Virus record (IMG/VR): IMGVR_UViG_3300042385_000508 | Location: 1 to 23,599 of that record | DNA: 23,599 nt | Direction: 5' to 3' (one strand) | Source of the DNA: a virus | Shown: positions 6,599-21,211 of the stretch, in pieces | How positions within the stretch are numbered: position 1 is the first letter of the stretch | Layout: every line of letters starts with the position of its first letter | Notes under the pieces: model-generated | What the model was told of the DNA's origin: nothing | The model's database searches: none | The model's input: only the letters and a program-made list of their open reading frames with translations | Program-made: the position numbers and the translations under genes

Positions 6599-6973
<375 letters not shown>

Positions 6974-9000: not shown

Positions 9001-9356
9001 CGTGTTACGTCTCTCCAAATTTTAATTGTGCCACCGAAATAGGTGCGCACGAATCCTGCGGTGTCGGTGGTCTCGAAATCATAAACCCAAGTCCCTGCAC
9101 GGAGCGGGAAGTCTAGTATTTCTGGAATAACAAAAGTCCATGCGGCTGCACTGGTGATGGTGATCGTGCCGTCTGATGTGCTGAGTTCGAGCACGGTGTC
9201 CGGGCTTTCGAAGTTCTCGCGGAAATACATGCGAGCAGATGCCACGGCCACAGGTGGTGGTGCGCTGTTCACTTCGATTTCGATCGACTCGATGCCGCGC
9301 CATGAATCGCCGCGAATGCGAGTGCTGAGATTGTAGGTTGCTCGTGGGTCGCTCAT
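8997..9356 (-). CDS. Small beta-rich tail protein (fibre-proximal)
   Basis: A 119-residue protein. RGDSWRGIESIEIEVNS and a later SAAAWTFVIPE ... AGTWVYDFETTDTAG ... YFGGTIKI pattern give an Ig-like or baseplate-wedge type beta-sandwich seen in phage proteins placed before fibre genes. The end (WRDVTR) is typical of these short tail-tip proteins. It overlaps the stop of the previous gene (TAATG) and the start of the fibre gene (ATGA), so equal co-expression with both is likely. I infer that it links the fibre to the tail tip. No enzyme motif is seen. Confidence 0.6.
   Translation of the reverse strand: MSDPRATYNLSTRIRGDSWRGIESIEIEVNSAPPPVAVASARMYFRENFESPDTVLELSTSDGTITITSAAAWTFVIPEILDFPLRAGTWVYDFETTDTAGFVRTYFGGTIKIWRDVTR
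9011..9016 (-). promoter_or_regulatory. Ribosome binding site of the tail fibre gene
   Basis: GGAGAG on the minus strand, 10 bases before the ATG at 9000. It supports that start over the in-frame TTG at 9018. Confidence 0.5.
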
Positions 9357-10627
9357 TATGCTGTGGTGATGTGGAGAGTTGCGAGGGAGATGTCGTAATA
9401 GATGCGACCCGCTGCGAGTGCAGTGTTGGCGGCAGTAAGATCAGCGTATGAGGTGAATCCTAGATTCTCAAAAACCTGTTGTTTCTGCGCGCTGCTCAAA
9501 GCATCGACGGCATCGACGCGCGGGAATCTGTCGTTTGCGACGCTTTCCAATAAGTAAACAGGCCCTGCGGTCTGTGATGCTGGCGTGTTGGGAATGACGT
9601 CTTCGCGGACCGTGCATGATACCTGCAGTGGCGTCCATGTGTCTCCAGTGATGTCATCGACCAACTCGATCTCTAGGGTGGCATCGGCGCGTGATCGACC
9701 AGCAAGCAATTCTGAAATGCCTGTGGTGTTGTTGGATAAGATGCCACTGCGACCAGTCGGGACAATTAGTGCCGCAGAATCGCCGACAATCTGATCAACG
9801 TCACCAAGAGAGGCGGCGAAGGCGATAGAGAAGTTCGGGAAATCTCCCGAAACCGTCACGTTGTCAGCACCGACTCCTGCCAATGCCTCAAGTGCTGCTT
9901 GCACGGTGGCCGCGTCTGCGTCCCATGATAGTGATGCGGTCTCGTCAGTATCAACTGTGAGCGTGTAGGTTCCATCATAGGGGATGGGAGAAAGTGCCAC
10001 TGTTTGAATGTCAGAAATTCCTGTTCCTCCTTCGCGGACTGTGGCGACCACAATCGCTGCGGCTGGAAGATCGTCTGTGAGTTCGACGTATGCAGCAGGC
10101 TGGGCTTGTAGATTGATCAGGTAGATCGCCTGGGTGGAAACTGAGCCAGCGAGCACGGTAGAAATGTATGCGCTCGATGTTGGCGAGATGGAAGTTACGT
10201 CTGCGGTAATCGCTGTGCGGACACCCACGCTGGTGAAGATCACCTTGTAGGAATTCGTTGTCGCAGTGACGGTAACACCACCCGCTGAGATGATCGACGC
10301 TAATAGATTCAGAGCAGCGGATACCTGCGCGGCTGTGGCGTTGTATGCGAGGGCCGTGGTAGTGTTTGCACCGTAGGTCAGGGTGAATGTGCCAGCTGTT
10401 GGAGATGACCCCGGCACTCCGATGCCGAGTCGCACGGTCTGGTCGGTGAGATCAATTTCGCGCCATGGTCGGGCATTCGCTCCGCTGGGTTCGACAAGAC
10501 GAACAGACACTGGCGTTTCGTCTCCGAAAACAAACGATGGAGAAGCTCCTTGGACCGTAGAGGAAAACGAAGAAATGAGTGTGCCACCTTGGACGTTGAC
10601 AATAAAATCTAATGAGCGACCCGCCAT
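9356..10627 (-). CDS. Tail-tip/baseplate protein with a duplicated beta domain
   Basis: A 423-residue beta-rich protein (MAGRSLDFIVNVQGG). It carries two related units. One, about residues 78-132, reads GTFTLTYGANTTTAL...AAQVSAALNLL...GVTVT; the other, about 218-271, reads GTYTLTVDTDETASL...AATVQAALEALAGV...NVTVS. The pattern is a strand pair, an 'A-x-x-V-x-x-A-L' helix and a further strand. The C-terminal 60 residues contain a helical segment (DALSSAQKQQVFENLGFTSY) typical of fibre-linked phage proteins. It follows a gap containing the TTGAAATGA start-associated motif, then TAATG couples it to the next gene. It is probably a structural component of the tail tip. Confidence 0.6.
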   Translation of the reverse strand: MAGRSLDFIVNVQGGTLISSFSSTVQGASPSFVFGDETPVSVRLVEPSGANARPWREIDLTDQTVRLGIGVPGSSPTAGTFTLTYGANTTTALAYNATAAQVSAALNLLASIISAGGVTVTATTNSYKVIFTSVGVRTAITADVTSISPTSSAYISTVLAGSVSTQAIYLINLQAQPAAYVELTDDLPAAAIVVATVREGGTGISDIQTVALSPIPYDGTYTLTVDTDETASLSWDADAATVQAALEALAGVGADNVTVSGDFPNFSIAFAASLGDVDQIVGDSAALIVPTGRSGILSNNTTGISELLAGRSRADATLEIELVDDITGDTWTPLQVSCTVREDVIPNTPASQTAGPVYLLESVANDRFPRVDAVDALSSAQKQQVFENLGFTSYADLTAANTALAAGRIYYDISLATLHITTA

Positions 10628-10633
10628 GCTTAA

Positions 10634-10649
10634 AGGGTCATTTCAACCC
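10634..10649 (-). promoter_or_regulatory. Start-associated motif TTGAAATGA with hairpin
   Basis: On the minus strand GGGT-TGAAATG-ACCC forms a 4-bp hairpin whose loop is nearly identical to those before three other starts. The 9-base core (10638-10646) ends 10 bases before the ATG at 10627. It differs from the other sites by one base (G for C). Confidence 0.55.
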
Positions 10650-10669
10650 GTGAGAATGCGCAGAAGAAA

Positions 10670-11398
10670 TCAGTAGGTGAAATCCACGCTCAATGAGCAC
10701 GATCCACTGTGACCTCCCCCGTCTGCTGTGTTAGATGCAGTTATAAAAGATGAGAAAATTCCGCTGAAAATAGCAGTCTCACTCGCCCAGGTAGCAGTCC
10801 ACGGCAACCTGAGAACTTTGGCATAAAAACTCGGCAGAAGATCCGTTGCGGTTCCGCTCGTTCCTTCGAAAATCTCGATCGTAACCTTCTCTACGGTGGT
10901 ATCAGTGCCTCGCCCCATCGATGGCGGCAATCCTCCGTCATACATGAGGAAGATGATCTTGTAGTTCACATCCGTCACCACATCAGTTCCTGCGGCCCAC
11001 GGATCGCTGATCGTAGCGCGAGAGTAGGGAGTTGCAGTGCAGGTGCCGATCACCACCTCGGCAGGATCTCCACCATAAGCAGCATTCACCTCCCACATGT
11101 AAAGAGGTTTATGCCCCATCGTAAATTCCCCATCCGCTAGAGTCACAGGCAATGGCCCCCACGGTTGCTTTTCCACTATCACACGATCCCACGGTGTGGC
11201 CAGTGAATAGTCCAAGTCGAACACATAACGAGTAGCCACCGTGCCAGCACCTGTGAAATCACGCTCGTCCCTGGTATAGCTCAAGGTCCCCGATAGACCA
11301 AGCTGCGACAATCTCTGCGGATGATTGTAGCTATACCCACGATAGCTTGTGGCCAATGTGGACTTCTTATTTTTGATCAATGACCAAAACGCACTCAT
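10670..11398 (-). CDS. Tail-tip protein, function unknown
   Basis: A 242-residue protein, mostly beta-strand and rich in Thr, Gly and aromatic residues. There is a recognisable stretch FDLDYSLATPWDRVIVEKQPW and a C-terminal SCSLSVDFTY strand. No signal, membrane or catalytic motif is seen. It lies between two other tail proteins in the same operon, starts 3 bases after the previous stop (leader TTTTTTAAAA, no Shine-Dalgarno), and stops 42 bases before the next start. The context (after the tape measure and before the fibre) points to a tail-tip or baseplate role. Confidence 0.55.
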   Translation of the reverse strand: MSAFWSLIKNKKSTLATSYRGYSYNHPQRLSQLGLSGTLSYTRDERDFTGAGTVATRYVFDLDYSLATPWDRVIVEKQPWGPLPVTLADGEFTMGHKPLYMWEVNAAYGGDPAEVVIGTCTATPYSRATISDPWAAGTDVVTDVNYKIIFLMYDGGLPPSMGRGTDTTVEKVTIEIFEGTSGTATDLLPSFYAKVLRLPWTATWASETAIFSGIFSSFITASNTADGGGHSGSCSLSVDFTY

Positions 11399-11401
11399 TT
11401 T

Positions 11402-11917
11402 TTAAAAAATAGATACTTCCCACGCATTGGAAACTCCACCATGGGCCACAGCGATCAGTGGTCCATAGTTGCCTTGGGAGATCGTGAGAGGATCAGGCAC
11501 ACCTGCCACCACCTCAACGGTGCCGATCACCACGTAACGATCGGTGGAAGTGTTCGATGACGGTGTGCTCACCCAGTCCATCGCAGTGGCGGTGAATGCT
11601 CCTGTGGTAGAATTGATCACCACCTTCGCTTGCAGATACCATGTGCCATTAGCTGGTGCGAGTTCCACGGTCTGTGCTTGCAATACTCCTGCCAGCACAC
11701 CAGGTGCAGCAATCAACGAAGTCCCCACAGATATTTGGAAAGGAAGATTTGAACTGGTAGTGCTTTTTCTGTTTTTATTCGCCAAGATCACACCACCGTG
11801 AGTGTTGGTGACTTGCATTCCAGCGCCGCGAGGTGTGCGACGATTGATGGCATCGAGCAATCGAGGATCACCCGGAACACCTGCGTCGAATGAGTTTCCT
11901 TTTCGGTGTGGGTTCAT
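11402..11917 (-). CDS. Tail-tip protein, function unknown
   Basis: A 171-residue protein with a basic, likely disordered N-terminus (MNPHRKGNSFDAGVPGDPRL), then a beta-rich region. The stretch PANGTWYLQAKVVINSTTG and the C-terminal AHGGVSNAWEVSIF look like phage-tail beta structure. It overlaps the stop of the preceding 229-residue gene by TAATG. No membrane helix or enzyme motif is present. It is inferred to be a minor tail protein because it sits inside the tail-tip gene run, but no family is recognised. Confidence 0.55.
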   Translation of the reverse strand: MNPHRKGNSFDAGVPGDPRLLDAINRRTPRGAGMQVTNTHGGVILANKNRKSTTSSNLPFQISVGTSLIAAPGVLAGVLQAQTVELAPANGTWYLQAKVVINSTTGAFTATAMDWVSTPSSNTSTDRYVVIGTVEVVAGVPDPLTISQGNYGPLIAVAHGGVSNAWEVSIF

Positions 11918-12606
11918 TATGGGTAGAGGATGGACGAGAAACCATTCGGGCCGCTGCCCATGATTTGCTCGGTGACTTGGTAAAAACTACCGACTTGGCG
12001 GTAGGGGTAATCGATGACGAGAAATTCTTTCACGTCCGCAGGTTTGCGGAATCCTGGTATCGATGTTTTGCGCGTCATGCGGCGACCTAAGGTTGGAACA
12101 TTTTTCGTCCAGTAAGTGAGTGAAAGCAATGTCGCCGGCACTAGGTAGAATTCGGCACCGAATAAGTCCGTGATTGTGGGGTCGAAGAATCCTAGGAATT
12201 CACCAGTCTCTGAGTCGAACTTCGCACCATTGGCTGTATTGGGAGCGTCAGGAGTTCCCGCAAATGTAACAAAGTCAGGATGAGATGTGACCGGATCTTG
12301 GTTGAGATTTGGAGTATAGGAGATCGTCGGGTCGGTCTTCGCAGAAATCAGTCCAAAGTAGGAACCAGTCATGCGTAATTTTCGCAGAGGCAAATAGGTG
12401 ATCTCGCGGTTGTAAAGTTCGCACCGTGCATCACGCGGATGCGGTGAGTTGATCTGTGGAAGATTGTTGAGTCGCGTTTCGTCGCACTCAAAAACGACTT
12501 GCCCCTCGATCGTTCCGTCGTTCTTTTCCGTCAGTGAAAAATTCGGTTGAATCACCACTCCGTCGGAGTAGTAGTCTGTGACAGTTCCTTTTCTGGTTAG
12601 GCTCAT
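11917..12606 (-). CDS. Minor tail protein directly after the tape measure, distal-tail candidate
   Basis: A 229-residue protein (MSLTRKGTVTDYYSDGVVIQ) with beta-like character. Internal features include FECDETRLNNLP, and GFFDPTITDLFGAEFYLVPATLL in the middle. The first gene downstream of a tape measure in long-tailed phages is commonly the distal tail protein that starts the tip. Position supports that idea, but no signature of the Dit family was recognised. It is coupled to the tape measure by ATGA (12603-12606) and to the following gene by TAATG. Confidence 0.5.
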   Translation of the reverse strand: MSLTRKGTVTDYYSDGVVIQPNFSLTEKNDGTIEGQVVFECDETRLNNLPQINSPHPRDARCELYNREITYLPLRKLRMTGSYFGLISAKTDPTISYTPNLNQDPVTSHPDFVTFAGTPDAPNTANGAKFDSETGEFLGFFDPTITDLFGAEFYLVPATLLSLTYWTKNVPTLGRRMTRKTSIPGFRKPADVKEFLVIDYPYRQVGSFYQVTEQIMGSGPNGFSSILYP

Positions 12607-14276
12607 ACTGGTTCGGGGATGTTGGCGTTTCCTGTTTGTGTTCTGCTCGTGTTCTGAGCGATGGTTTCAAGCACGCTAAGTTGACGCTGTTGGATCGTCT
12701 CACCTGTCAGTAGGTTGGCACTTCCTCCCGCTCCGATGCTGGCTAGAGAACCTGTTGAGATCATCGGTGTGGCGGGTTCTTTCTTTTTCGTGTCCGCCAG
12801 GTCTTTCAGAATATCTTGCATCTCGTAGCCTTTCTCGCGAGCTTGGCGAGTCTTGTCGATCTGAGTGGCTTGATCGCCTGCATCACCCGCTTCTTTCGCA
12901 TCCATCAATAGATTCGCTTGCTCTGCTTTTAGCATGTCTACTTTACCAGCGGGGTCGGCGGTTTCAAAAGCGCGATTGCGTTTCGATTCTTCGTCTTGCT
13001 TTTTCGCTTCGAGCCATCGCTCCATTTCCGCACCGATCTTGTCTGATTCCTTGCTTGCAGCATCGGCGGCTTCTTTGTTGCGCTTATCGATCAGGTCGCC
13101 GCGCTTCTTCTCGTTCTCTAGTATCTCTTTTTCCTTTTGTAGCTTGTCGTTGCCTGTGGCATTGTTCATCTCTTCAATCAAGGCCGCGCGCTCTTTATCG
13201 ATCTCAAGGATCTGCTCGGCGAGCGAAAGGTCTTTCATTCTCGCTTCTTTTTGCATGCCTGCAATTTCCTCCGCTAGCTTCTTTCGCTCCTCTTCTGATT
13301 TGATCGCTTCCTCGATTCCTTCTACAAGGGCGTCATTATTTTTATTCGCGCCACTTTCAACCGGTTTATTGTAAATTTCGTCAAAGACTTCTTTCACAGT
13401 TTCTCCAGTGGCTTCGATGTTGTTTTTGGTTTCATCGAATCCCTTCTTAATTCCGTTTTTGTATCTTTCAAATGCCTCGCCTGCTTTGGAGAAGTTGCCA
13501 GTGAGCGCGAATCCTATCACAGCGGCGCCGTTCTTGATTCCTGTGACGGCAGTGTCCCACGCAATCCCCATTTGAGTAATCGAGCCACCAATGGACGCAC
13601 CGATTGTGCCGCCGATCAGCATGAATGCCTCAATGATCGCAGCACCGCCAACAGAGAGTTTTTGCATGAAAGAATCCCACTGGTCGCCGAAGTTTTCAAG
13701 CGACGCGACGGTCGAATTTGAAACGACGGTCGTGTTTGCGAATTGTGTTTGTAACTCTTGCAGTCCTTGAGAAAGTAGCGGCATCATTTCAGCGCCTGAC
13801 TTGCCTAGAACCTTCATGACAAGTGCTAGGTTCTCTCCCGATCCTTTGCCGTTTTCAAAACCCTTGGCGAGTTCGAGAATCTTCTGCTCGATCGGTAGGT
13901 TTACGAATTCCCCGGCATTCATGCCGAGTGCTGCGAATGCTTCTCCCATTGCTCCGCCTTTTTGTGCGGCTTCGTATGCGTTCTTTGTGACCACCGACAT
14001 CGTCTTAGCAATGCCTTCGATGTCGGACCCTGCGAGCTGTGCTGCGAGTCCTACTCTCTGCATCGATTCCGCAGACTCGCCGAAACGTGTTGCGAGATCC
14101 TGAATGCGACTCATTTCATCGACAAGTTTTTTGATGCCACCAATGACAGCACCGACACCGAGAGCGCCGGCAATCATGCCCTTGGCGCTGCTGGCGAATT
14201 TTGTTGTTTGGCTTCGCATGTCGTCGAGACCTCTTTTGAATGGTCCAGTGTCTGCACCGAATACCCACTTCATCAT
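12603..14276 (-). CDS. Tape-measure protein
   Basis: A 557-residue protein. The N-terminus (MMKWVFGADTGPFKRGLDDM) is the standard start of this family. Gly/Ala-rich hydrophobic stretches (about 33-48 and 209-232, including AIIEAFMLIGGTIGASIGG) and a long charged coiled coil (about 300-460) fill the rest. Such proteins set tail length and are delivered with the DNA. At 557 residues the tail would be fairly short, roughly 80 nm by the usual 1.5 angstrom per residue rule. The start codon is doubled (ATGATG). It is coupled to the preceding chaperone candidate by ATGA (14273-14276) and has a purine-rich GAGG six bases before. Confidence 0.88.
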   Translation of the reverse strand: MMKWVFGADTGPFKRGLDDMRSQTTKFASSAKGMIAGALGVGAVIGGIKKLVDEMSRIQDLATRFGESAESMQRVGLAAQLAGSDIEGIAKTMSVVTKNAYEAAQKGGAMGEAFAALGMNAGEFVNLPIEQKILELAKGFENGKGSGENLALVMKVLGKSGAEMMPLLSQGLQELQTQFANTTVVSNSTVASLENFGDQWDSFMQKLSVGGAAIIEAFMLIGGTIGASIGGSITQMGIAWDTAVTGIKNGAAVIGFALTGNFSKAGEAFERYKNGIKKGFDETKNNIEATGETVKEVFDEIYNKPVESGANKNNDALVEGIEEAIKSEEERKKLAEEIAGMQKEARMKDLSLAEQILEIDKERAALIEEMNNATGNDKLQKEKEILENEKKRGDLIDKRNKEAADAASKESDKIGAEMERWLEAKKQDEESKRNRAFETADPAGKVDMLKAEQANLLMDAKEAGDAGDQATQIDKTRQAREKGYEMQDILKDLADTKKKEPATPMISTGSLASIGAGGSANLLTGETIQQRQLSVLETIAQNTSRTQTGNANIPEPV

Positions 14277-14941
14277 GCGTTACCTCGCTTTCCTTTGGTG
14301 TTGGCGAGCCAGTAATCAAACGTAGGTCCGATGAGTTCTTCTGGTAGTTCGTTTTGAAACTTGGTCATGGCTTCGTCGTCAGTGAGTTTTGAAAGGTCGA
14401 TTTCTGAGTTGTCTAGATCCGCATCATCGAGGAAGCGGAGATCGACTCCGTGGAGTTGTGCAAATTGAGCATCCATCCACATCGCTTTTCCGAGCGTGCA
14501 GTTCCACGCTTCGACCTCGGTGAGTCCGCCGCGCGTCATCAGTGAGCACACGAGACCGAGGCACCGAGGCCCACGATCTACGTGCTTGCTGATAGAGTCT
14601 GAGCCACTGGACGCACGGAAGAAAACTGGTGGCGACGATTGCCGCGCCATCCATTCATAAAAACGTTCAGTCTCTGCGCGGAATGTCGCAGTGTTGCGCG
14701 TAAGTTTTCTCTTCCACCATGCATCGAGCAGTCCAGGTGTGATGTCGCTTTCTCCGTATGTTAACCCACAAACGCGAACCGCAATGAGAAGATCAAGCAC
14801 GCTAACACGATCACCGCCAAGAGCAATCGGGGAGCCGATGGCAGACAAGACGAAGTGATGCCACAGTGAGAAGGTGGCGAGCTTTCGCCCACACACTTTC
14901 GCCACTGGTGGCAGGAAAGAATGGTAAAAGCGATCATCCAC
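14273..14941 (-). CDS. Tail assembly chaperone candidate
   Basis: A 222-residue, mainly helical acidic protein lying between the tail-tube candidate and the tape measure, the place of the lambda gpG/gpGT chaperone. The C-terminal part (DNSEIDLSKLTDDEAMTKF) is acidic. There is no second overlapping frame that would make a -1 frameshift product, and the next gene begins immediately, so it appears to be a single-length chaperone. Hydrophobic segments around residues 22-38 and 46-60 look like buried helices rather than membrane spans. Role is inferred from position, as the family is not recognised by sequence. Confidence 0.5.
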   Translation of the reverse strand: MDDRFYHSFLPPVAKVCGRKLATFSLWHHFVLSAIGSPIALGGDRVSVLDLLIAVRVCGLTYGESDITPGLLDAWWKRKLTRNTATFRAETERFYEWMARQSSPPVFFRASSGSDSISKHVDRGPRCLGLVCSLMTRGGLTEVEAWNCTLGKAMWMDAQFAQLHGVDLRFLDDADLDNSEIDLSKLTDDEAMTKFQNELPEELIGPTFDYWLANTKGKRGNA

Positions 14942-14947
14942 GGAGGG

Positions 14948-15298
14948 TTATGCGTATGAAACGTATTCCGATTTCTTGATGTTGTAGGTCAACGTGACGA
15001 AACCTTGTGACTGTTCCTCGCGGCCTTCGCTGACGATTTCGAACGCCACGCTGTTGTAGGTGTAATTCGCACCAGGCACAAGGGCCGTGAAGCCGGAGCG
15101 TGGGCGAATGGTGAGAGTGCCTTCTGCGTGAAGGTCGTCGTAGCGGCGCTCGATCTCATTGCCGATCTCGTTCACGGTTTCTGCCGTGTTCTTGTTCGAT
15201 GAGTTCAGAGACCAACTGAGAACAGTGGCATTCGTAACGATGGCGACACCGCCGACGATGCCATACAAGTGAGCGGTTCCTTTAGTGGTAAGTGACAT
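14948..15298 (-). CDS. Tail tube (major tail) protein candidate
   Basis: A 116-residue beta-rich protein (MSLTTKGTAHLYGIVGGVAI) lying two genes after the tail-completion candidate and before the chaperone, which is where the tail tube gene lies in lambda-like phages. It is short for a tube protein (lambda gpV is about 246, many others 130-200 residues). The Ig-like C-terminal domain of gpV is absent. The strands LHAEGTLTIRPRSGF and GFVTLTYNIKKSEY fit a tube beta-barrel. Its ATG is 6 bases after the previous stop, without Shine-Dalgarno. Confidence comes mainly from gene order. Confidence 0.5.
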   Translation of the reverse strand: MSLTTKGTAHLYGIVGGVAIVTNATVLSWSLNSSNKNTAETVNEIGNEIERRYDDLHAEGTLTIRPRSGFTALVPGANYTYNSVAFEIVSEGREEQSQGFVTLTYNIKKSEYVSYA

Positions 15299-15304
15299 GA
15301 TAGT

Positions 15305-15505
15305 TTATGGTTTAGCTTTGATTTGTTTGGCAGTGATCGCATCGCCTGTGATTACGCAGTGACCGTCTTTCGGTTCTGCGCTCACTGGCACTGCGGCATA
15401 GATCAATTTCCCTTCGTCATCGCGCAGGTCTGCCTTGCCGTCTTTTGGCTCGACATTGCGGAAATGGTGCTTGTGGCCAGCGGGGTGAAAATAGATCGCA
15501 TCCAT
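15305..15505 (-). CDS. Small hypothetical protein between tail genes
   Basis: A 66-residue protein if it starts at the ATG at 15505 (MDAIYFHPAGHKHHFRNVEP). An in-frame ATG two codons upstream at 15511 gives 68. I prefer 15505 because the TTGAAATCA motif then lies 10 bases away, as at other genes. It is His- and Lys-rich near the N-terminus and ends in KQIKAKP. No known family is recognised. A virion or assembly accessory role is possible from location only. Confidence 0.5.
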   Translation of the reverse strand: MDAIYFHPAGHKHHFRNVEPKDGKADLRDDEGKLIYAAVPVSAEPKDGHCVITGDAITAKQIKAKP

Positions 15506-15511
15506 AATCAT

Positions 15512-15528
15512 TGAGTGATTTCAACTCA
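15512..15528 (-). promoter_or_regulatory. Start-associated motif TTGAAATCA with hairpin
   Basis: On the minus strand GAGT-TGAAATC-ACTC forms a 4-bp hairpin. The 9-base core at 15516-15524 ends 10 bases before the ATG at 15505. The core is identical to the sites near 17082 and 21200. Confidence 0.6.
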
Positions 15529-15987
15529 AGCAGGCTCAGGTGTGAGTTGGCACACGACGACGATCTTGAATTGCTCGATCCAGTCGGCACGCTCGAATTC
15601 TGTCGGCTCGTTTTCTGGCATGGTGTCGTAGATGTGAGGAATGAATCCCTCCCATTCAAAGTCGAGCGCATTGATGAACGTGCTGATTGCTGCCACGTCT
15701 GAGAGCGAATCTTCGACTGTCATTCTCCAAGCGTCCAGAAGTGAGCGCGCATTAGTGGTCTCTGAATCGACGCGCAGTTCGAATCGCATGGAAACGACGC
15801 GAACGCCGGCACTGGTGGGCATGTCGGGATGCGGCACGGAATCCTCGGCAAAGCAGACGAGATACGGCTGTTCGACGATCTCTGCTTTCTCGTGTCCCTC
15901 GTAAATATTGAGGCCAGTAATGATGATACTCTCCATGTAGAGAGTGAGTGATTTTTCGACCTTGCGGGATAGTGAGAGATTGCTCAT
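15526..15987 (-). CDS. Tail completion/terminator protein candidate
   Basis: A 153-residue protein. It has alternating helices and strands with an acidic middle and the stretch RVVSMRFELRVDSETTNARS. Position after the gp10-like protein and before the tube protein matches lambda gpU (tail terminator). It begins with MSNLSLSRKVEKSLTLYM and overlaps the previous stop (ATGA at 15984-15987). A GGAAATC stretch lies 9 bases before the start. Assignment is by position and secondary structure rather than a recognised motif. Confidence 0.5.
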   Translation of the reverse strand: MSNLSLSRKVEKSLTLYMESIIITGLNIYEGHEKAEIVEQPYLVCFAEDSVPHPDMPTSAGVRVVSMRFELRVDSETTNARSLLDAWRMTVEDSLSDVAAISTFINALDFEWEGFIPHIYDTMPENEPTEFERADWIEQFKIVVVCQLTPEPA

Positions 15988-16760
15988 GATACGTTAGATT
16001 TCCTAAGTGCTTTTTCGATTTTCCGATCTTGGATGCGTTTCAAAACTGCACCGACCATGGTGGTTCTGTGACTCAGCGCCATCGATTCGTCTGCTGCGCT
16101 GAATGCTTCGCGTAGATAAGAAACGCCATTGATCATCTCTACGGATAGTTTGTCGCCACTCTCGACCATGCGACCAGTGCCTGGTGCTTTGTGACGTGTG
16201 GCGAATTGTGGAATTCCACGCGTTCCACCGAGCTGGCGTGATGCGGTGGCAAATCCTCCTTTTGCAAATCCTGTCATCTTTACTTTCTGGCGAATGTAGG
16301 CTTGCACCTTTGAGTAGTCGCTGACGACGAGCCGGTGCGTAACACGTTTTTTGAAACGCATCGATTTGTGAAGTTGCCCGAAGTCGAAAAGCCCCACATC
16401 GATTCTCCATCCAGGAATATGCTTGTCGGTGATTTGCTTTGCCTCGGAATATTTCTTGCGCTTGAGAAGTCCCCCGAATCTCTTGCCGACGCCATCTTCT
16501 ATTTTGTTGAGCACGTTGACGATATGGCCCGGGTGTGGATAAACCTCCCGCACTTTCATGGTGATCTTCGATTCGGTTGATTCCTTGTCCGCTTGACTCT
16601 TTCCTTTCGGGCGGGTGACTGCGGCGAAGTCGGTGGCAAGCAATCGCATCTGTGCAGGCAGAATCGAGCGGACTGTTTTCTTTGTCTCGCGAGCGAGGTC
16701 TGACAACGCATCGTTCAGCCTGCGGAGGTCTGCGGGATCTGGTTTGATGGTGACGCTCAT
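15984..16760 (-). CDS. Head-tail joining/minor tail protein, HK97 gp10/gpZ-like
   Basis: A 258-residue basic protein (many Lys/Arg). The N-terminal helix (DLRRLNDALSDLARETKKTV) and the RPKGKSQADKES stretch resemble phage minor tail or neck proteins of the gp10/gpZ class that attach the tail to the head. Downstream are a basic body and a C-terminal helix (VGAVLKRIQDRKIEKALRKS). It has a clean Shine-Dalgarno (AAGGAG, 6 bases before the ATG), the clearest in the window. An overlapping minus-strand frame at 16003-16791 is a shadow. The family call is inferred from position and composition. Confidence 0.55.
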   Translation of the reverse strand: MSVTIKPDPADLRRLNDALSDLARETKKTVRSILPAQMRLLATDFAAVTRPKGKSQADKESTESKITMKVREVYPHPGHIVNVLNKIEDGVGKRFGGLLKRKKYSEAKQITDKHIPGWRIDVGLFDFGQLHKSMRFKKRVTHRLVVSDYSKVQAYIRQKVKMTGFAKGGFATASRQLGGTRGIPQFATRHKAPGTGRMVESGDKLSVEMINGVSYLREAFSAADESMALSHRTTMVGAVLKRIQDRKIEKALRKSNVS

Positions 16761-17071
16761 CAGCCTCTCCTTTCTGGTTCGAGCAGATCAAGAATTAGCG
16801 CACCTGGTCCGTTGTCAACGCGATCGATCTTCCACGTTTTGCCGCGACAAGTGGCGGTCTGCCGACTGGTGGGAACTGTGGCGAATGCACCAGAAGGAAG
16901 GGAGACGCGCAGGCCCCGACGGTTCTCGTCGCCCCCGTCTGCAATCATCAGCTCGGCGCCGATGTCTTCGACTACTCCACGCGCGGTGGCGCTGCCGATG
17001 GTGACGTTCTCTGCATCGAACTGATCGAGCGATGATTCAAACGCGGCTTTGACAAATAAGGCGACTCCCAT
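16760..17071 (-). CDS. Head-tail joining protein, FII-like candidate
   Basis: A 103-residue protein with a beta-barrel-like make-up: an N-terminal helix (MGVALFVKAAFESSLDQF), then strands, ending in VDNGPGALILDLLEP. It is the first gene after the capsid gene and its terminator, which corresponds to lambda FI/FII. FII-type joining proteins are of similar size and have the pattern 'T-W-x-I-D-R-V' seen here as KTWKIDRV. Its stop overlaps the next start. The start is preceded at 10 bases by TTGAAATCA. Confidence 0.55.
   Translation of the reverse strand: MGVALFVKAAFESSLDQFDAENVTIGSATARGVVEDIGAELMIADGGDENRRGLRVSLPSGAFATVPTSRQTATCRGKTWKIDRVDNGPGALILDLLEPERRG
16767..16772 (-). promoter_or_regulatory. 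Strong Shine-Dalgarno of the gp10/gpZ-like gene
   Basis: AAGGAG on the minus strand, 6 bases before the ATG at 16760. It shows that canonical initiation is used by at least one gene here. Confidence 0.7.
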
Positions 17072-17077
17072 ACCAAG

Positions 17078-17094
17078 GGAATGATTTCAAATGA
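17078..17094 (-). promoter_or_regulatory. Start-associated motif TTGAAATCA (no hairpin)
   Basis: The exact 9-base core at 17082-17090 ends 10 bases before the ATG at 17071 and follows the poly-U of the terminator. The flanks (CATT and TTCC) do not pair, so here only the core and spacing are conserved. Confidence 0.55.
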
Positions 17095-17124
17095 AAAACC
17101 CCCGCACCGTTTTCGATGCGAGGG
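17094..17124 (-). terminator. Rho-independent terminator after the capsid gene
   Basis: On the minus strand CCCTCGCA pairs with TGCGGGGG (8 bp, one G-U) around a 10-base loop, and five U follow. It lies 24 bases after the capsid stop, inside the structural operon, and should lower transcription of tail genes relative to capsid. Confidence 0.8.
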
Positions 17125-17148
17125 TGAACACTATACAATGAGCAGAAA

Positions 17149-18297
17149 TTAGTCAGTGAGAAGGCAGATGTGCTCAGGCTTGAGAACCTTAGAACCCCAC
17201 AGAACGCCGATCTCGTAATGAATCATGCGATAGCCGGGATACACTGCAAGCTCAAAGCTCAGGCCGCTGCGTGGGTCAGTGATGACTTCGCGCATGATGG
17301 CAAGGTCTTCGCCGCCGATTGGCACTTCTGGCAAACGAGTTGCAAGGATGATGGCGTTACGGCTGAAGGCTGCATTGGCATCTTGAGCGGAAAGGACGGT
17401 CACAGGGTCATTGTTGGCGATTGCCTTGATGAGACCAGGTGCTGCGATGGTGATGTCTTGGTCGCCATCTCCAGCGGTTCCAGTTGTCACGGTGTAGGTA
17501 TTGCCGCCAATCGTCACAAGTGAACCGGCTGGGATGCTGCCTGTGCCTGTGTCGACGTGGAGCAAGGTGTCTCCGACAGCGTAGCCAGCTACGTTGTCAA
17601 CAAGGTAACTGGCACCAGTGGCGGTGGCAGTAAGACCGATCTGAGCGGACTCACGAACCGAGAAGCCCATGATGTTTCCAAGCACACCTTGACGAAGCAA
17701 GTTTGCGTCGCCTGCGCTGTCAACACTGTTCAACTGTGTCAGGCCGCGCATTGCTGCGGAAGCTGTGGTGTTGAGAACCATGTGGCGATCGCTGAGTGGA
17801 GCGCCGCGATCATCCAAGAATTTCTTGGTGAATGCTGCGTCTTTCAGAGTTGCGCTAAACAATGTCGTTGCATTTGGCGTGATGCCACCAGATGCGCCAA
17901 GAGCAGCGGCGTCGGCGAGATCGTTTTCGATTTCGTTGACAGCAGCACGAATGGCCTGAGCGACTTGATCTTGGGCAACACTCAAAGTGCCGGCTCCTTG
18001 ATTCACAGCGTATTGTTCCTCGGCACTCCATGAGAATGGAAACGCGCGAGCTTTGGTGATGGTGATATTTTCGTTGCCGACAGTCTGGTCCGCGATTGCG
18101 GGGAATGCCATAGCAGCGGTGATGTTCTTGCCTGCTGTATTAGCAGCAGTTTTGAACGAGCGGAGGTTTTGACCAACTGCCACGCGATCGGCCGAAGCGT
18201 CACGAGTTACGGAAGGAATAAAACCGACAAGCTCACGCGACACAACGTCAAGCGCAGTGTAGGCGTCAGCCACGAGGTTGGTGAGGGTATTAGCCAT
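17149..18297 (-). CDS. Major capsid protein (HK97 fold, P22-coat-like style)
   Basis: A 382-residue protein. The N-terminal helix region (TLTNLVADAYTALDVVSREL) is followed by the PFSWSAEEQYAVN segment. Next come a spine-helix block (AIRAAVNEIENDLADAAALG) and DRHMVLNTTASAAMRGL ... VLGNIMGFSVRES, which fit coat proteins of P22-related type. A Gly/Thr-rich insertion (about 240-285, GYAVGDTLLHVDTGTG) could be a surface domain. It follows the protease/scaffold gene by 27 bases and is followed by a terminator, the usual layout for the most abundant virion protein. There is no decoration-protein gene next to it. The leader lacks a Shine-Dalgarno and is AT-rich. Confidence 0.85.
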   Translation of the reverse strand: MANTLTNLVADAYTALDVVSRELVGFIPSVTRDASADRVAVGQNLRSFKTAANTAGKNITAAMAFPAIADQTVGNENITITKARAFPFSWSAEEQYAVNQGAGTLSVAQDQVAQAIRAAVNEIENDLADAAALGASGGITPNATTLFSATLKDAAFTKKFLDDRGAPLSDRHMVLNTTASAAMRGLTQLNSVDSAGDANLLRQGVLGNIMGFSVRESAQIGLTATATGASYLVDNVAGYAVGDTLLHVDTGTGSIPAGSLVTIGGNTYTVTTGTAGDGDQDITIAAPGLIKAIANNDPVTVLSAQDANAAFSRNAIILATRLPEVPIGGEDLAIMREVITDPRSGLSFELAVYPGYRMIHYEIGVLWGSKVLKPEHICLLTD

Positions 18298-18324
18298 AAT
18301 TTTTTAGTAGTTGAGATTATTTTG

Positions 18325-19392
18325 TTAGTCTTGAATTTTCCCGCCAGATTTGACAAATGCCATTTTCTGCGTGGGGTTGAATGAATTGAATTTTTCCAAT
18401 GAGACGATGGAGTCTGTCTCGTCACCTTTCGCGTCAGGGATCTCTCCTTTAAATCCGAGATTGGCGATGCCGAGTTGAACTTTACTTGCCACTTCCGAAT
18501 CGAATGACGCGAGCTTTTCGTTTGCTTCTGCGATCGTTTGCTCTTGGTCGGCGACGGTGGCCTGTGCGGTGGCGAGTGCAGCGGATGCCTTGTCGCGTTC
18601 GCTGGTCAAGCTGTTGATCGTTTCAGAAGCGGTGACTGCATCGGCTTGCAATGCCTCGATAGTTGCGGTGGCTGCGGTGATCTCGTTTTCTAGTTCGGAA
18701 ACGCGAGATTCAAAGCCTGCGATTTTTTCGAGCGCTTGTTTATTGGTGAGGAAAAAATTCATATTGTCAGAAGTAGAATCGTGATTTAATAGTTCGGTGA
18801 TTTCAACTGATGCGGAAACTAGGACCGTATCGGCGAATCCATTGGCGACCGATTCTGATGCATTCATCCATGTCTCAGCTTTCATCATAGTGCGGATCTC
18901 ATCGGCTGGCTTGCCTGTCTTGGCGGCGTAGATGTTTGCAAGGTCAGCGGAAATACTGTCGAGTAGATCAGCGGATTTTCTCAAATAGTCGGCATTGCCG
19001 GCGACGGTATTGGAAGCGTCGTGAATCATCATGCGACCGTGTGGAACGATGGCGACGTGATCACAAGCCATGCAGATGACGCTTGCCATCGATGCTGCCA
19101 TTCCTGTGATGGTGGCATTGACGACGACGCCACGGTCTCTCAAACTTTTGATTTCTTGGTAGATGGTGAATCCGTCGAACACGCTCCCGCCTGGGGAATT
19201 AATTTCGATCTCAAGAGTATCGACCGCATTCTCTGCGGCATTCATGATCTCGCCAAAGTCTGCACCGGAAGCGGATGCACTGGCGCCGAATAGCTTGCCG
19301 ATCTCATCGACGAGTCGTGTGATTGATTGGCGGGTGACGCTCTCGTTGAGCTTCACCTTGCCGCTTTTATTTTCGATTATGATTGTATTCAT
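18325..19392 (-). CDS. ClpP-like head maturation protease with C-terminal scaffold
   Basis: A 355-residue fusion. Residues about 55-200 are an S14/S49-like fold: INSPGGS at 64-70, the nucleophile signature GMAASMAS with Ser101, and MMIHDAS with His124. Residues about 210-310 are a long coiled coil rich in Ala, Glu and Thr (ISEL..., AATATIEALQADA), as in scaffold proteins, and the C-terminus (KFNSFNPTQKMAFVKSGG) is a likely coat-binding tail. An internal ATG at 18762 (residue 211, MNFFLTNKQ) could make the scaffold alone, as lambda Nu3 is nested in gene C. It lies between portal and capsid as expected. The start overlaps the portal stop and is preceded by a purine-rich AAGAAGAAGA stretch. Confidence 0.85.
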   Translation of the reverse strand: MNTIIIENKSGKVKLNESVTRQSITRLVDEIGKLFGASASASGADFGEIMNAAENAVDTLEIEINSPGGSVFDGFTIYQEIKSLRDRGVVVNATITGMAASMASVICMACDHVAIVPHGRMMIHDASNTVAGNADYLRKSADLLDSISADLANIYAAKTGKPADEIRTMMKAETWMNASESVANGFADTVLVSASVEITELLNHDSTSDNMNFFLTNKQALEKIAGFESRVSELENEITAATATIEALQADAVTASETINSLTSERDKASAALATAQATVADQEQTIAEANEKLASFDSEVASKVQLGIANLGFKGEIPDAKGDETDSIVSLEKFNSFNPTQKMAFVKSGGKIQD

Positions 19393-20906
19393 TGGTCTTC
19401 TTCTTTTTTGGTTTTGTCGTCGGTGCTGGTGTCTTCGACTGGCACTTCGTTTGCTGTGAGCATTTCGAACTTGCGACGGTCCACGGTGAACCCTTCGGAT
19501 TCTTCACGCGCGCGGATTTTCTTTTCGTAGCGAAATACGGTCTCGATGCGGTCGTCTTCCAACTGCTCAAGGTCGCCGCCTTCTTCCAGCACGATTTTCG
19601 ATTTGTTGAGAATGCCGATCTTGAAGTCTTCGCGTCTCTGCGCTGCATCGCGGCCTTGATCGACGGAGAATTTGCGTGGCATGATAAAGCCCCATTTCCA
19701 CCAGTCGTTCTGATTCTTAGGTTGTGGCAGGATTCCTTCCTTGATCGCCTTGGCGATTGCCCAGCGGACGGTGCGAATAGCTGCGGTGTAAATGGTGTCT
19801 TGGCGATCTTCTACGGTCATCCGCATCTGCTCTTGAATGTTTCGCACCATCGCGGCGTTGATTTCGTTCGCCTTCCACGATAGCTCGTATGGAACTTTCA
19901 CGCCTTTGCTCATGAGTCTGATGACACGATCTTGGAAGGTGCTCCACATGTCGCCTGGTCGCTCGTGCTTGATCTGCTCGATCTTCCCGCCTGAGTTGCT
20001 GCGGAAGTAGCGGATTGTGCCGTTCTGCAAAAGTTCGGTCGTCGGGTTGGTGTTCTGTGGAAGAATGTTTCCATTCTCGTCCACTGGTGGTTGGTATCCA
20101 GGGTCGTCGATGTCAGGACCGCCTGTCTCGTTGTATTCGACAAGACCAATCGACGAGACCATGAGCTGCGCCATTTGCTCCCATTCGTGGGAGAGAAGTG
20201 ACGAGCGGATAAATTTCAGCGACGACGATCCGGTCGGTAGTCCGCGCGATTGGTCGTGCCAGTTTTTTTCGGCATTGAAAACGCAATCGTTCGCGTCGAT
20301 CTGGATGTCGTCGGTGGCATTGTCGCCGAGAATGTTGTAGGCAATGACAGCACCGCGTCGGTCGTAGATCACGCCGTGGGTCATCTTCGAACCTTTGTAT
20401 TTGCCCTCCTTGATTTCAGTCTCAGCCATGCCTCGTTGTCCGATTCGGTTGGCAGGTATTCTCCGCGTCATCGGCCATCCGCTTGACGTCGGCTCCAGCA
20501 CCACGAGGTAGTCGCCATCGCGGTCGAGAGATACGCAGTCGAGCCAGAGCAGGGACTTGAAATCACTGCCGCTTAGATCGCACATGCCATACCATTGATT
20601 GAGTAGCCAATCGGTGGCGACCTTGCCCCAGTCTTTGTCTTCGCCGTGGAACTTTGCATTCCACGCACGCCCAACAACGTGGTCGGCCTTCATGGTGATC
20701 GCTGCCTCATACGGTGGAAAGTTCATGAACATTTTACGACTTCCTGAAAGCAATGCTTTTCGATCCCAGTCGGGAACGAGCTTGTCAAACGAGTCGGTGA
20801 ATAATGGCTCAAGTGGTTGCGCGCGGTCATTGCGGTTCGCTGCGTTGGCAAAGCGTCCACCGCTGCCACTGGTCACCGGGTTTCCGTATTGGTCGAGAAT
20901 AGGCAT
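19389..20906 (-). CDS. Portal protein (lambda gpB type)
   Basis: A 505-residue protein. DSFDKLVPDWDRKALLSGSR at residues about 38-57 and the following segments are typical of lambda-type portals. It continues with GDYLVVLEP and a YDRRGAVIAYNILGD beta-hairpin, then a helix-rich C-terminal half. It forms the dodecameric channel at the head vertex. Size is close to lambda gpB (533 residues). It lies two genes downstream of the large terminase with the gpW-like gene between, as in lambda. Start and stop are coupled to neighbours (no Shine-Dalgarno at its start). The overlapping plus-strand frames are shadows. Confidence 0.85.
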   Translation of the reverse strand: MPILDQYGNPVTSGSGGRFANAANRNDRAQPLEPLFTDSFDKLVPDWDRKALLSGSRKMFMNFPPYEAAITMKADHVVGRAWNAKFHGEDKDWGKVATDWLLNQWYGMCDLSGSDFKSLLWLDCVSLDRDGDYLVVLEPTSSGWPMTRRIPANRIGQRGMAETEIKEGKYKGSKMTHGVIYDRRGAVIAYNILGDNATDDIQIDANDCVFNAEKNWHDQSRGLPTGSSSLKFIRSSLLSHEWEQMAQLMVSSIGLVEYNETGGPDIDDPGYQPPVDENGNILPQNTNPTTELLQNGTIRYFRSNSGGKIEQIKHERPGDMWSTFQDRVIRLMSKGVKVPYELSWKANEINAAMVRNIQEQMRMTVEDRQDTIYTAAIRTVRWAIAKAIKEGILPQPKNQNDWWKWGFIMPRKFSVDQGRDAAQRREDFKIGILNKSKIVLEEGGDLEQLEDDRIETVFRYEKKIRAREESEGFTVDRRKFEMLTANEVPVEDTSTDDKTKKEEDQ

Positions 20907-20909
20907 AGA

Positions 20910-21188
20910 TCAGCAGAGTCGGGCAATGGTTCGGGATTGTGGCATCGTGCCTCGGTTGATATGTTCCAGCGCCTCGCTGAGAACTTCGAACCACTCGGAA
21001 TTGGTCATGCTGGCAAGCTGCGTGAAGCTGCTTCCATTGGTGGACCCGCTCACCATTTGTCCACCTTTATTGGTGGCAATCTCGGTCAGCACAGCGGTCT
21101 GCCATGTTTGGAGCTGTTCAAGATTCGTGTCTGACACGTTGCCATAACGAATCAGAGCTTTGAGAAAAGCATTGGAAGGTCGCGCCAT
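20910..21188 (-). CDS. gpW-like head-tail joining protein
   Basis: With the ATG at 21188 the protein has 92 residues (MARPSNAFLKALI). An in-frame TTG two codons upstream is possible but less likely. A helix-strand-helix order (QTAVLTEIATNKGG, then QMVSGSTNGSSFTQLASM, then SEWFEVLSEALEHIN) resembles gpW, a small protein added to the head after DNA packaging. Lambda gpW (68 residues) sits between terminase and portal too. The TTGAAATCA motif lies 11 bases before the ATG. Assignment is by position plus fold pattern. Confidence 0.6.
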   Translation of the reverse strand: MARPSNAFLKALIRYGNVSDTNLEQLQTWQTAVLTEIATNKGGQMVSGSTNGSSFTQLASMTNSEWFEVLSEALEHINRGTMPQSRTIARLC

Positions 21189-21196
21189 TTCCAATG

Positions 21197-21211
21197 TGGT
21201 GATTTCAACCC
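21197..21211 (-). promoter_or_regulatory. Start-associated motif TTGAAATCA with hairpin
   Basis: On the minus strand GGT-TGAAATC-ACC forms a 3-bp hairpin. The 9-base core at 21200-21208 ends 11 bases before the ATG at 21188. Confidence 0.55.

Follow-up and report, generated by a model that had tools for sequence, protein, structure and literature searches.

By which signal is a late phage gene started when it begins in a gap, where stop/start coupling with the preceding gene does not reach? This question is raised by a 23.6-kb virus fragment of IMG/VR (IMGVR_UViG_3300042385_000508, positions 1 to 23,599; this whole stretch is called the window in the following). Its minus strand carries a lambda-like late operon, in which a 9-base sequence, TTGAAATSA, precedes four start codons at almost constant distance. 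With slightly better than even confidence, we interpret this sequence, here called the tag, as one half of a two-part cis-acting element that would control the start sites of late (structural) genes at the RNA level. The other half would be a hairpin around the start codon.

Tag sites in the window

The four tag sites and their spacings of 11, 10, 10 and 10 bases before the ATGs (Table 1) were found exactly as in the initial annotation, which was made from the letters of the window alone. Six copies of TTGAAATSA are present on both strands of the window, compared with a mean of 0.76 and a maximum of 3 in 100 dinucleotide shuffles. Thus, the claim that this placement exceeds chance was borne out. 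The annotation had listed the four copies linked to starts correctly and left out the remaining two, at 18798 and 20557. As both of these lie inside genes, they were not counted as elements.

The tag at 21200 overlaps the stop codon of terL (TGA, 21207-21205), so that the gap before the following 92-amino acid (aa) gene is only 16 bases. At the start of the 66-aa gene (g66) a second in-frame ATG is present at 15511. A relative carries GTG at this position and ATG at the position of 15505; hence, 15505 is the conserved start.

Conservation of tag and spacing in related phages

The near relative L023/L049 (large terminase 94% identical, DNA identity 72-81%) shares the four tags, each at an unchanged distance from the start of the corresponding gene. 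The 10638 site, TTGAAATGA in the window, reads exactly TTGAAATCA in L049. A stretch of 58 bases that runs from the terminator across the tag to the start of the 103-aa gene is nearly identical between the window and L023/L049, whereas the flanks differ. For g66, the more distant L044 spells the tag as TTGAAATCC.

In distant relatives the exact 9-mer was mostly missing or situated within coding sequence, which at first resembled a refutation. After alignment of orthologous starts (20 or more loci), TTGAMA (M = A or C) was detected at the same position in phages of 30-60% protein identity. It begins 19-20 bases before the orthologous ATGs, and the tag ends about 13-16 bases before the start. At the start of the 92-aa gene TTGAMA is also found in L024, L028, L044 and others. 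The tag is spelled TTGACAC in L024, TTGAAACCG in L028, TTGAAACG in L044 and, three times, TTGACATCGCC in L041; the letters following TTGAMA are fairly uniform within a phage and different between phages. Altogether, TTGAMA stands at -19/-20 in 17 of 251 phage-family genes and occurs 0-2 times at any other single offset. A search for the motif near starts in relatives had been proposed as a check; its outcome was that the signal is retained at starts, at constant spacing, but not in other parts of genes. The annotated 9-mer is therefore real, but it represents the local version of the shorter signal TTGAMA at -19/-20.

Some further arrangements were observed at tagged starts of relatives. In L023/L049 (8370-8690) an insertion of about 300 bases just upstream of the g66 tag lengthens the preceding gene and carries at its end another, decayed tag, TTTGAAATCCC. 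Protease and scaffold, which are fused in the window (18325-19392), are split in L049 (4208-5543). The scaffold start of L049 carries TTGAAATCG and a small hairpin, GTCA-CAATGA-TGAC, with a spacing shorter than at the other sites.

Occurrence in prophages and in host genes

A search for portals related to that of the window was successful in 19 of 388 Verrucomicrobiota genomes, whereas 301 Chloroflexota genomes gave no match. The Verrucomicrobiota genomes were reached with a 16S probe, after portal alignment in a first contig scan had given nothing. From these prophage relatives we infer that the host of the window's phage probably belongs to the Verrucomicrobiota. In the prophages around the portals, TTGACA stands about 19-22 bases before many late-gene starts, with up to about nine sites per prophage. 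One genome harbours two related prophages (G435a/G435b, L320-L323) with about nine tag sites each.

For comparison, host genes were sampled from six prophage-bearing genomes. Only 4 of these 1309 genes have the tag at the start, compared with 18 of 214 phage-family genes (Fisher p=1e-12) and 65 of 562 genes of prophage regions (Fisher p=2e-30). The latter fraction overstates the average prophage, since the regions were picked partly for carrying the tag; the positional peak and the host contrast are independent of this choice. Three phages of other hosts gave 1 match in 168 genes. The pattern TTGACACGC N9-12 ATGG was near chance in the 388 Verrucomicrobiota genomes, with exceptions in or beside some prophages (three in the G195 prophage, one each beside the portals of G238 and G138). 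For significance in genome pattern searches, a control with the pattern written backwards was set aside, because it alters the dinucleotides. With sampled host genes lacking the tag and the genome-wide pattern near chance, the tag is a phage signal and not a general host signal.

The statement that the motif is not Shine-Dalgarno-like was confirmed, as the frequency of GGAG, GAGG and AGGA was at background in the phages and in the hosts. This agrees with a published list in which the Verrucomicrobia count as "SD-scarce" organisms that have conserved the anti-Shine-Dalgarno sequence (PMC10783764). Host 16S sequences reaching the 3' end carry the usual CCTCC. A sigma-70 promoter was rejected: no -10 hexamer was detected at a distance of 15-19 bases (2.26 of 6 positions vs 2.48 in shuffled sequence), and no promoter match was obtained at the sites. 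A search of Rfam gave no match for the element.

A hairpin around the start codon

The initial annotation described a motif only, and this picture is incomplete. Its central omission is a hairpin that encloses the start codon. An inverted repeat typically comes after the tag in the prophages, and its loop, or the junction of loop and stem, holds the start codon. Examples are TTGACA-CGGGCGTTTCC-TGTATAT-GGAAACGCCCG, TTGACAC-CGTTGCCGC-AGGCATGAGCAAA-GCGGCAACG and TTGACA-TTCGCCG-TGTTTTTTA-TGGCGAA. The start-codon hairpin score was higher for tagged starts than for other starts of the same genomes (p=7e-11), and 52% vs 14% lay above a fixed score. In 16 prophage regions, exchange of arms between sites of the same genome lowered pairing from 12.47 to 10.29 +/- 0.28, and none of 1000 permutations reached the observed value. 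Control starts showed no pairing excess in this test. The sites of a single prophage have stems of different sequence, which favours a structure over a DNA palindrome recognised by a protein. No excess over shuffles was obtained for an additional small hairpin lying between the tag and the start.

For the four sites of the window together the hairpin was significant against shuffles (p=0.001), and a hairpin is predicted at three of them (Table 1). At the 10638 site L049 can form a different stem, ACGCC-TAAAGCAT-GGCGT (p=0.034). The predicted hairpin of this site thus persists between the window and L049 while the bases change.

Proposed mode of action

The first part of the proposed element would be the fixed tag UUGA(A/C)A, beginning about 19-22 bases before the start codon and lengthened to UUGAAAUCA in the window's own lineage. 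The second part would be the hairpin, whose 5' arm would start 0-8 bases after the tag and whose 3' arm would consist of the first codons, with the start codon held in the loop or at the loop-stem junction. Such an element may be used where a late gene starts in a gap, beyond the reach of stop/start coupling. The initial annotation had suggested that the motif may recruit ribosomes or bind a regulator. The fixed distance to the start codon together with the start-codon hairpin makes translation the favoured level of action. The hairpin may keep initiation low or make it conditional, and the tag may serve as a sequence-specific handle for a ribosome-associated or RNA-binding partner. As the element precedes no non-structural phage gene, this partner is more probably encoded by the host. 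Beyond the observed tag, its fixed spacing, its phage specificity and the start-codon pairing excess in the prophages, control of when or how strongly the tagged genes are translated is probable, and it may be activating or repressing. A wider interpretation is more tentative and in our view rather doubtful. Late genes of Verrucomicrobiota phages might possess an initiation system in place of Shine-Dalgarno pairing, consisting of single-stranded UUGACA about 20 bases upstream and a hairpin presenting the start codon; it would be read by a host factor of which cellular genes make little use in this form.

Several results weigh against the two-part element. The 15516 site has no convincing hairpin (p=0.52 vs shuffles), and in the window's own phage family the arm-swap effect is weaker (21 of 1000). 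Stems shift between relatives, by 2-3 bases at the 10638 site, and do not line up column by column. Gene starts were assigned by a simple script and not experimentally. Pairing of the tag with host 16S rRNA was rejected, as TGTCAA is absent from 13 partial or complete 16S sequences and as a single base could not pair with both the A and the C variant of the tag. A phage-encoded partner was searched by co-occurrence in 36 contigs, and only structural genes stood out.

The main rival explanation is a promoter inside the hairpin, with TTGAMA as the core of a phage-specific late promoter. It is modelled on phage T4 gene e, where the hairpin blocks early read-through transcripts and late transcripts start at the late promoter (PMC3014915). 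Transcription would begin a few bases downstream of the tag, either inside the 5' arm or beyond it. Read-through mRNA that comes from upstream would fold and stay silent, and mRNA started at the tag would lack the 5' arm and be translated nearly leaderless. The order of tag, 5' arm and start codon is indeed the geometry of gene e (PMC3014915), and a promoter accounts for the strict spacing, the phage-specific spelling and the position of one tag just after the terminator at 17125-17098. The sites of phage P8625 described below, with TTGACA at -36 before four genes and TATTGG/TATCTG 17 bases on at three, also fit. We nevertheless regard a promoter as unlikely: a -10 sequence at the usual distance is missing in the window family and in the prophages, a promoter of 6 bases would be poorly specified, and nine sites in one operon would be many. 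Furthermore, a scan of early-module proteins from one relative revealed neither a phage RNA polymerase nor a sigma factor.

Mycobacteriophage stoperators are asymmetric repressor-binding sites that stop transcription in lysogens. An operator or stoperator of a phage regulator, lying at gene starts by happenstance, would agree with a tag spelling that is constant in each phage but varies from phage to phage (TTGAAATCA, TTGACATCGCC, TTGACACGC), and several relatives are prophages, one contig encoding an integrase. Since operators need no fixed distance to a start codon, since the inverted repeats differ from site to site and since TTGAMA is common to very distant phages, this explanation is very improbable. 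Even less is to be expected of a boundary marker for gene exchange between phage modules, a role that had been suggested for the motif. It can be judged at the major capsid gene (window 17146-18324), whose protein is 92-94% identical to that of a distant phage group (L001-L020) with only 30-35% terminase identity, and only 49% identical to that of the nearest relative, L023. This pattern indicates that the gene alone was cleanly exchanged; the exchanged segment ends just outside the gene or where its terminator ends. One boundary, at the terminator end, precedes the 17090 tag by 4-7 bases, but the other, at 18324, has no motif. Moreover, the tag is vertically conserved before the same genes, and no fixed recombination product was seen; little support is left for the suggestion. 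Equally remote is a general translation-initiation signal of the host that phages simply share. Hosts without Shine-Dalgarno enrichment must have another signal, but the tag counts in host genes and the near-chance frequency of TTGACACGC N9-12 ATGG largely refute the tag as a host-wide one.

If the two-part element is confirmed, it would be of use in several respects. How ribosomes select start codons in phyla poor in Shine-Dalgarno sites is only partly understood, and the element gives a direct handle on this question. With its defined tag, spacing and structure, its several copies per genome and its absence from sampled host genes, the element could be moved to reporters, and its tag could serve as bait for the partner. 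It also provides a sequence signature for spotting this phage lineage and for fixing start-codon calls in metagenomes.

Gene content of the window and further observations

The late operon encodes the small and large terminase, the 92-aa protein in gpW position, portal, fused protease-scaffold, major capsid protein, connector proteins, tail proteins and the tape measure protein. PHROG and Pfam searches with the 92-aa gene product were without match. Near the end of a 124-aa gene (6615-6650, minus strand) GAGCCT hexamers follow one another in a short run and encode Glu-Pro repeats.

Table 1 Positions of tags, predicted hairpins and associated genes in the window
Feature	Position	Strand	Remarks
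Tag TTGAAATCA	21200..21208	-	11 bases before ATG 21188 of 92-aa gene; TTGAAATCG in L023/L049
Tag TTGAAATCA	17082..17090	-	10 bases before ATG 17071 of 103-aa gene; identical in L023
Tag TTGAAATCA	15516..15524	-	10 bases before ATG 15505 of 66-aa gene; kept in L023
Tag TTGAAATGA	10638..10646	-	10 bases before ATG 10627 of 423-aa tail gene
Further TTGAAATSA copy	18798-18806	-	in protease-scaffold gene, encodes Val-Glu-Ile-Thr; no start codon at right distance
Further TTGAAATSA copy	20557-20565	+	antisense within portal gene
Hairpin CATTGGAA-ATGGCGCGACC-TTCCAATG	21170..21196	-	start codon in loop; p=0.002 vs shuffles, strong
Hairpin ATTCCC-TTGGTAT-GGGAGT	17064..17082	-	AT of start codon in loop, G in stem; p=0.057, marginal
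Hairpin TGACCC-TTTAAGCATGGC-GGGTCG	10617..10640	-	start codon in loop; p=0.044, moderate
Terminator-like stem-loop	17098..17125	-	after major capsid gene; ends 7 bases before next tag; conserved in L023
92-aa gene	20910..21188	-	between terL and portal gene, lambda gpW position; orthologs in 20+ loci
103-aa gene	16760..17071	-	after capsid gene, head-tail connector position; orthologs keep upstream TTGAMA
66-aa gene (g66)	15305..15505	-	downstream of tag
423-aa gene	9356..10627	-	tail-related, downstream of tag; PHROG tail families

The closest cultured relative according to terminase and portal is the Verrucomicrobia phage P8625 (L059), with only 24-27% identity. In this phage TTGACA is located exactly at -36 before four genes (5448, 10772, 15594 and 22442), and at three of them TATTGG or TATCTG follows 17 bases downstream. 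At these three sites an inverted repeat is situated just before the ATG, as a clear GTATC...GATAC at two and weaker at the third. Possibly, these sites are near-leaderless promoters with an operator or hairpin.

Comparison with known systems

A fixed tag at -20 combined with a start-codon hairpin and repeated through the late operon of phages whose hosts lack Shine-Dalgarno enrichment was not found in searches of the open-access literature. Single features of the element are known from other phages. The likeness in concept to the start-associated sequences (SAS/ESAS) of cluster K mycobacteriophages, noticed in the initial annotation, holds on closer comparison. These, too, are short, repeated, asymmetric and phage-specific sequences, placed at a short and constant distance before the starts of some genes; they are almost missing from the host, and inverted repeats occur near about half of the sites (PMC3203893). 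The tag shares repetition, asymmetry, fixed spacing and rarity in the host with the SAS but not its consensus, since the SAS reads GGGATAGGAGCCC and ends 3-7 bases before the start (PMC3203893), in contrast to TTGAMA at -19/-20. Furthermore, the inverted repeat lies upstream of the SAS, whereas here it surrounds the start codon.

The inhibitory hairpins of the T4 genes e, soc and 49 likewise lock the start of a phage gene and are repeated in related phages (PMC3014915). A start codon in an RNA helix that recurs in relatives is predicted here as well, with strong support in the prophages and less in the family of the window. The T4 hairpin sequesters the Shine-Dalgarno sequence and/or the AUG, with the known late promoter TATAAATA beside it (PMC3014915). 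The element described here has neither a Shine-Dalgarno sequence nor a known promoter, but a conserved tag directly 5' of the stem. In phage Mu mom with its activator Com, a stem likewise contains the start codon and borders on a sequence-specific RNA site; this concerns one gene with a dedicated protein acting on an upstream hairpin (PMC6483171), whereas the tag is common to many genes. Many phage mRNAs with a common, protein-recognised initiation region are known from the T4 RegA operators, yet these are A+U-rich and unstructured (PMC3014915), unlike the hairpin element proposed for the late genes of the window and its relatives.

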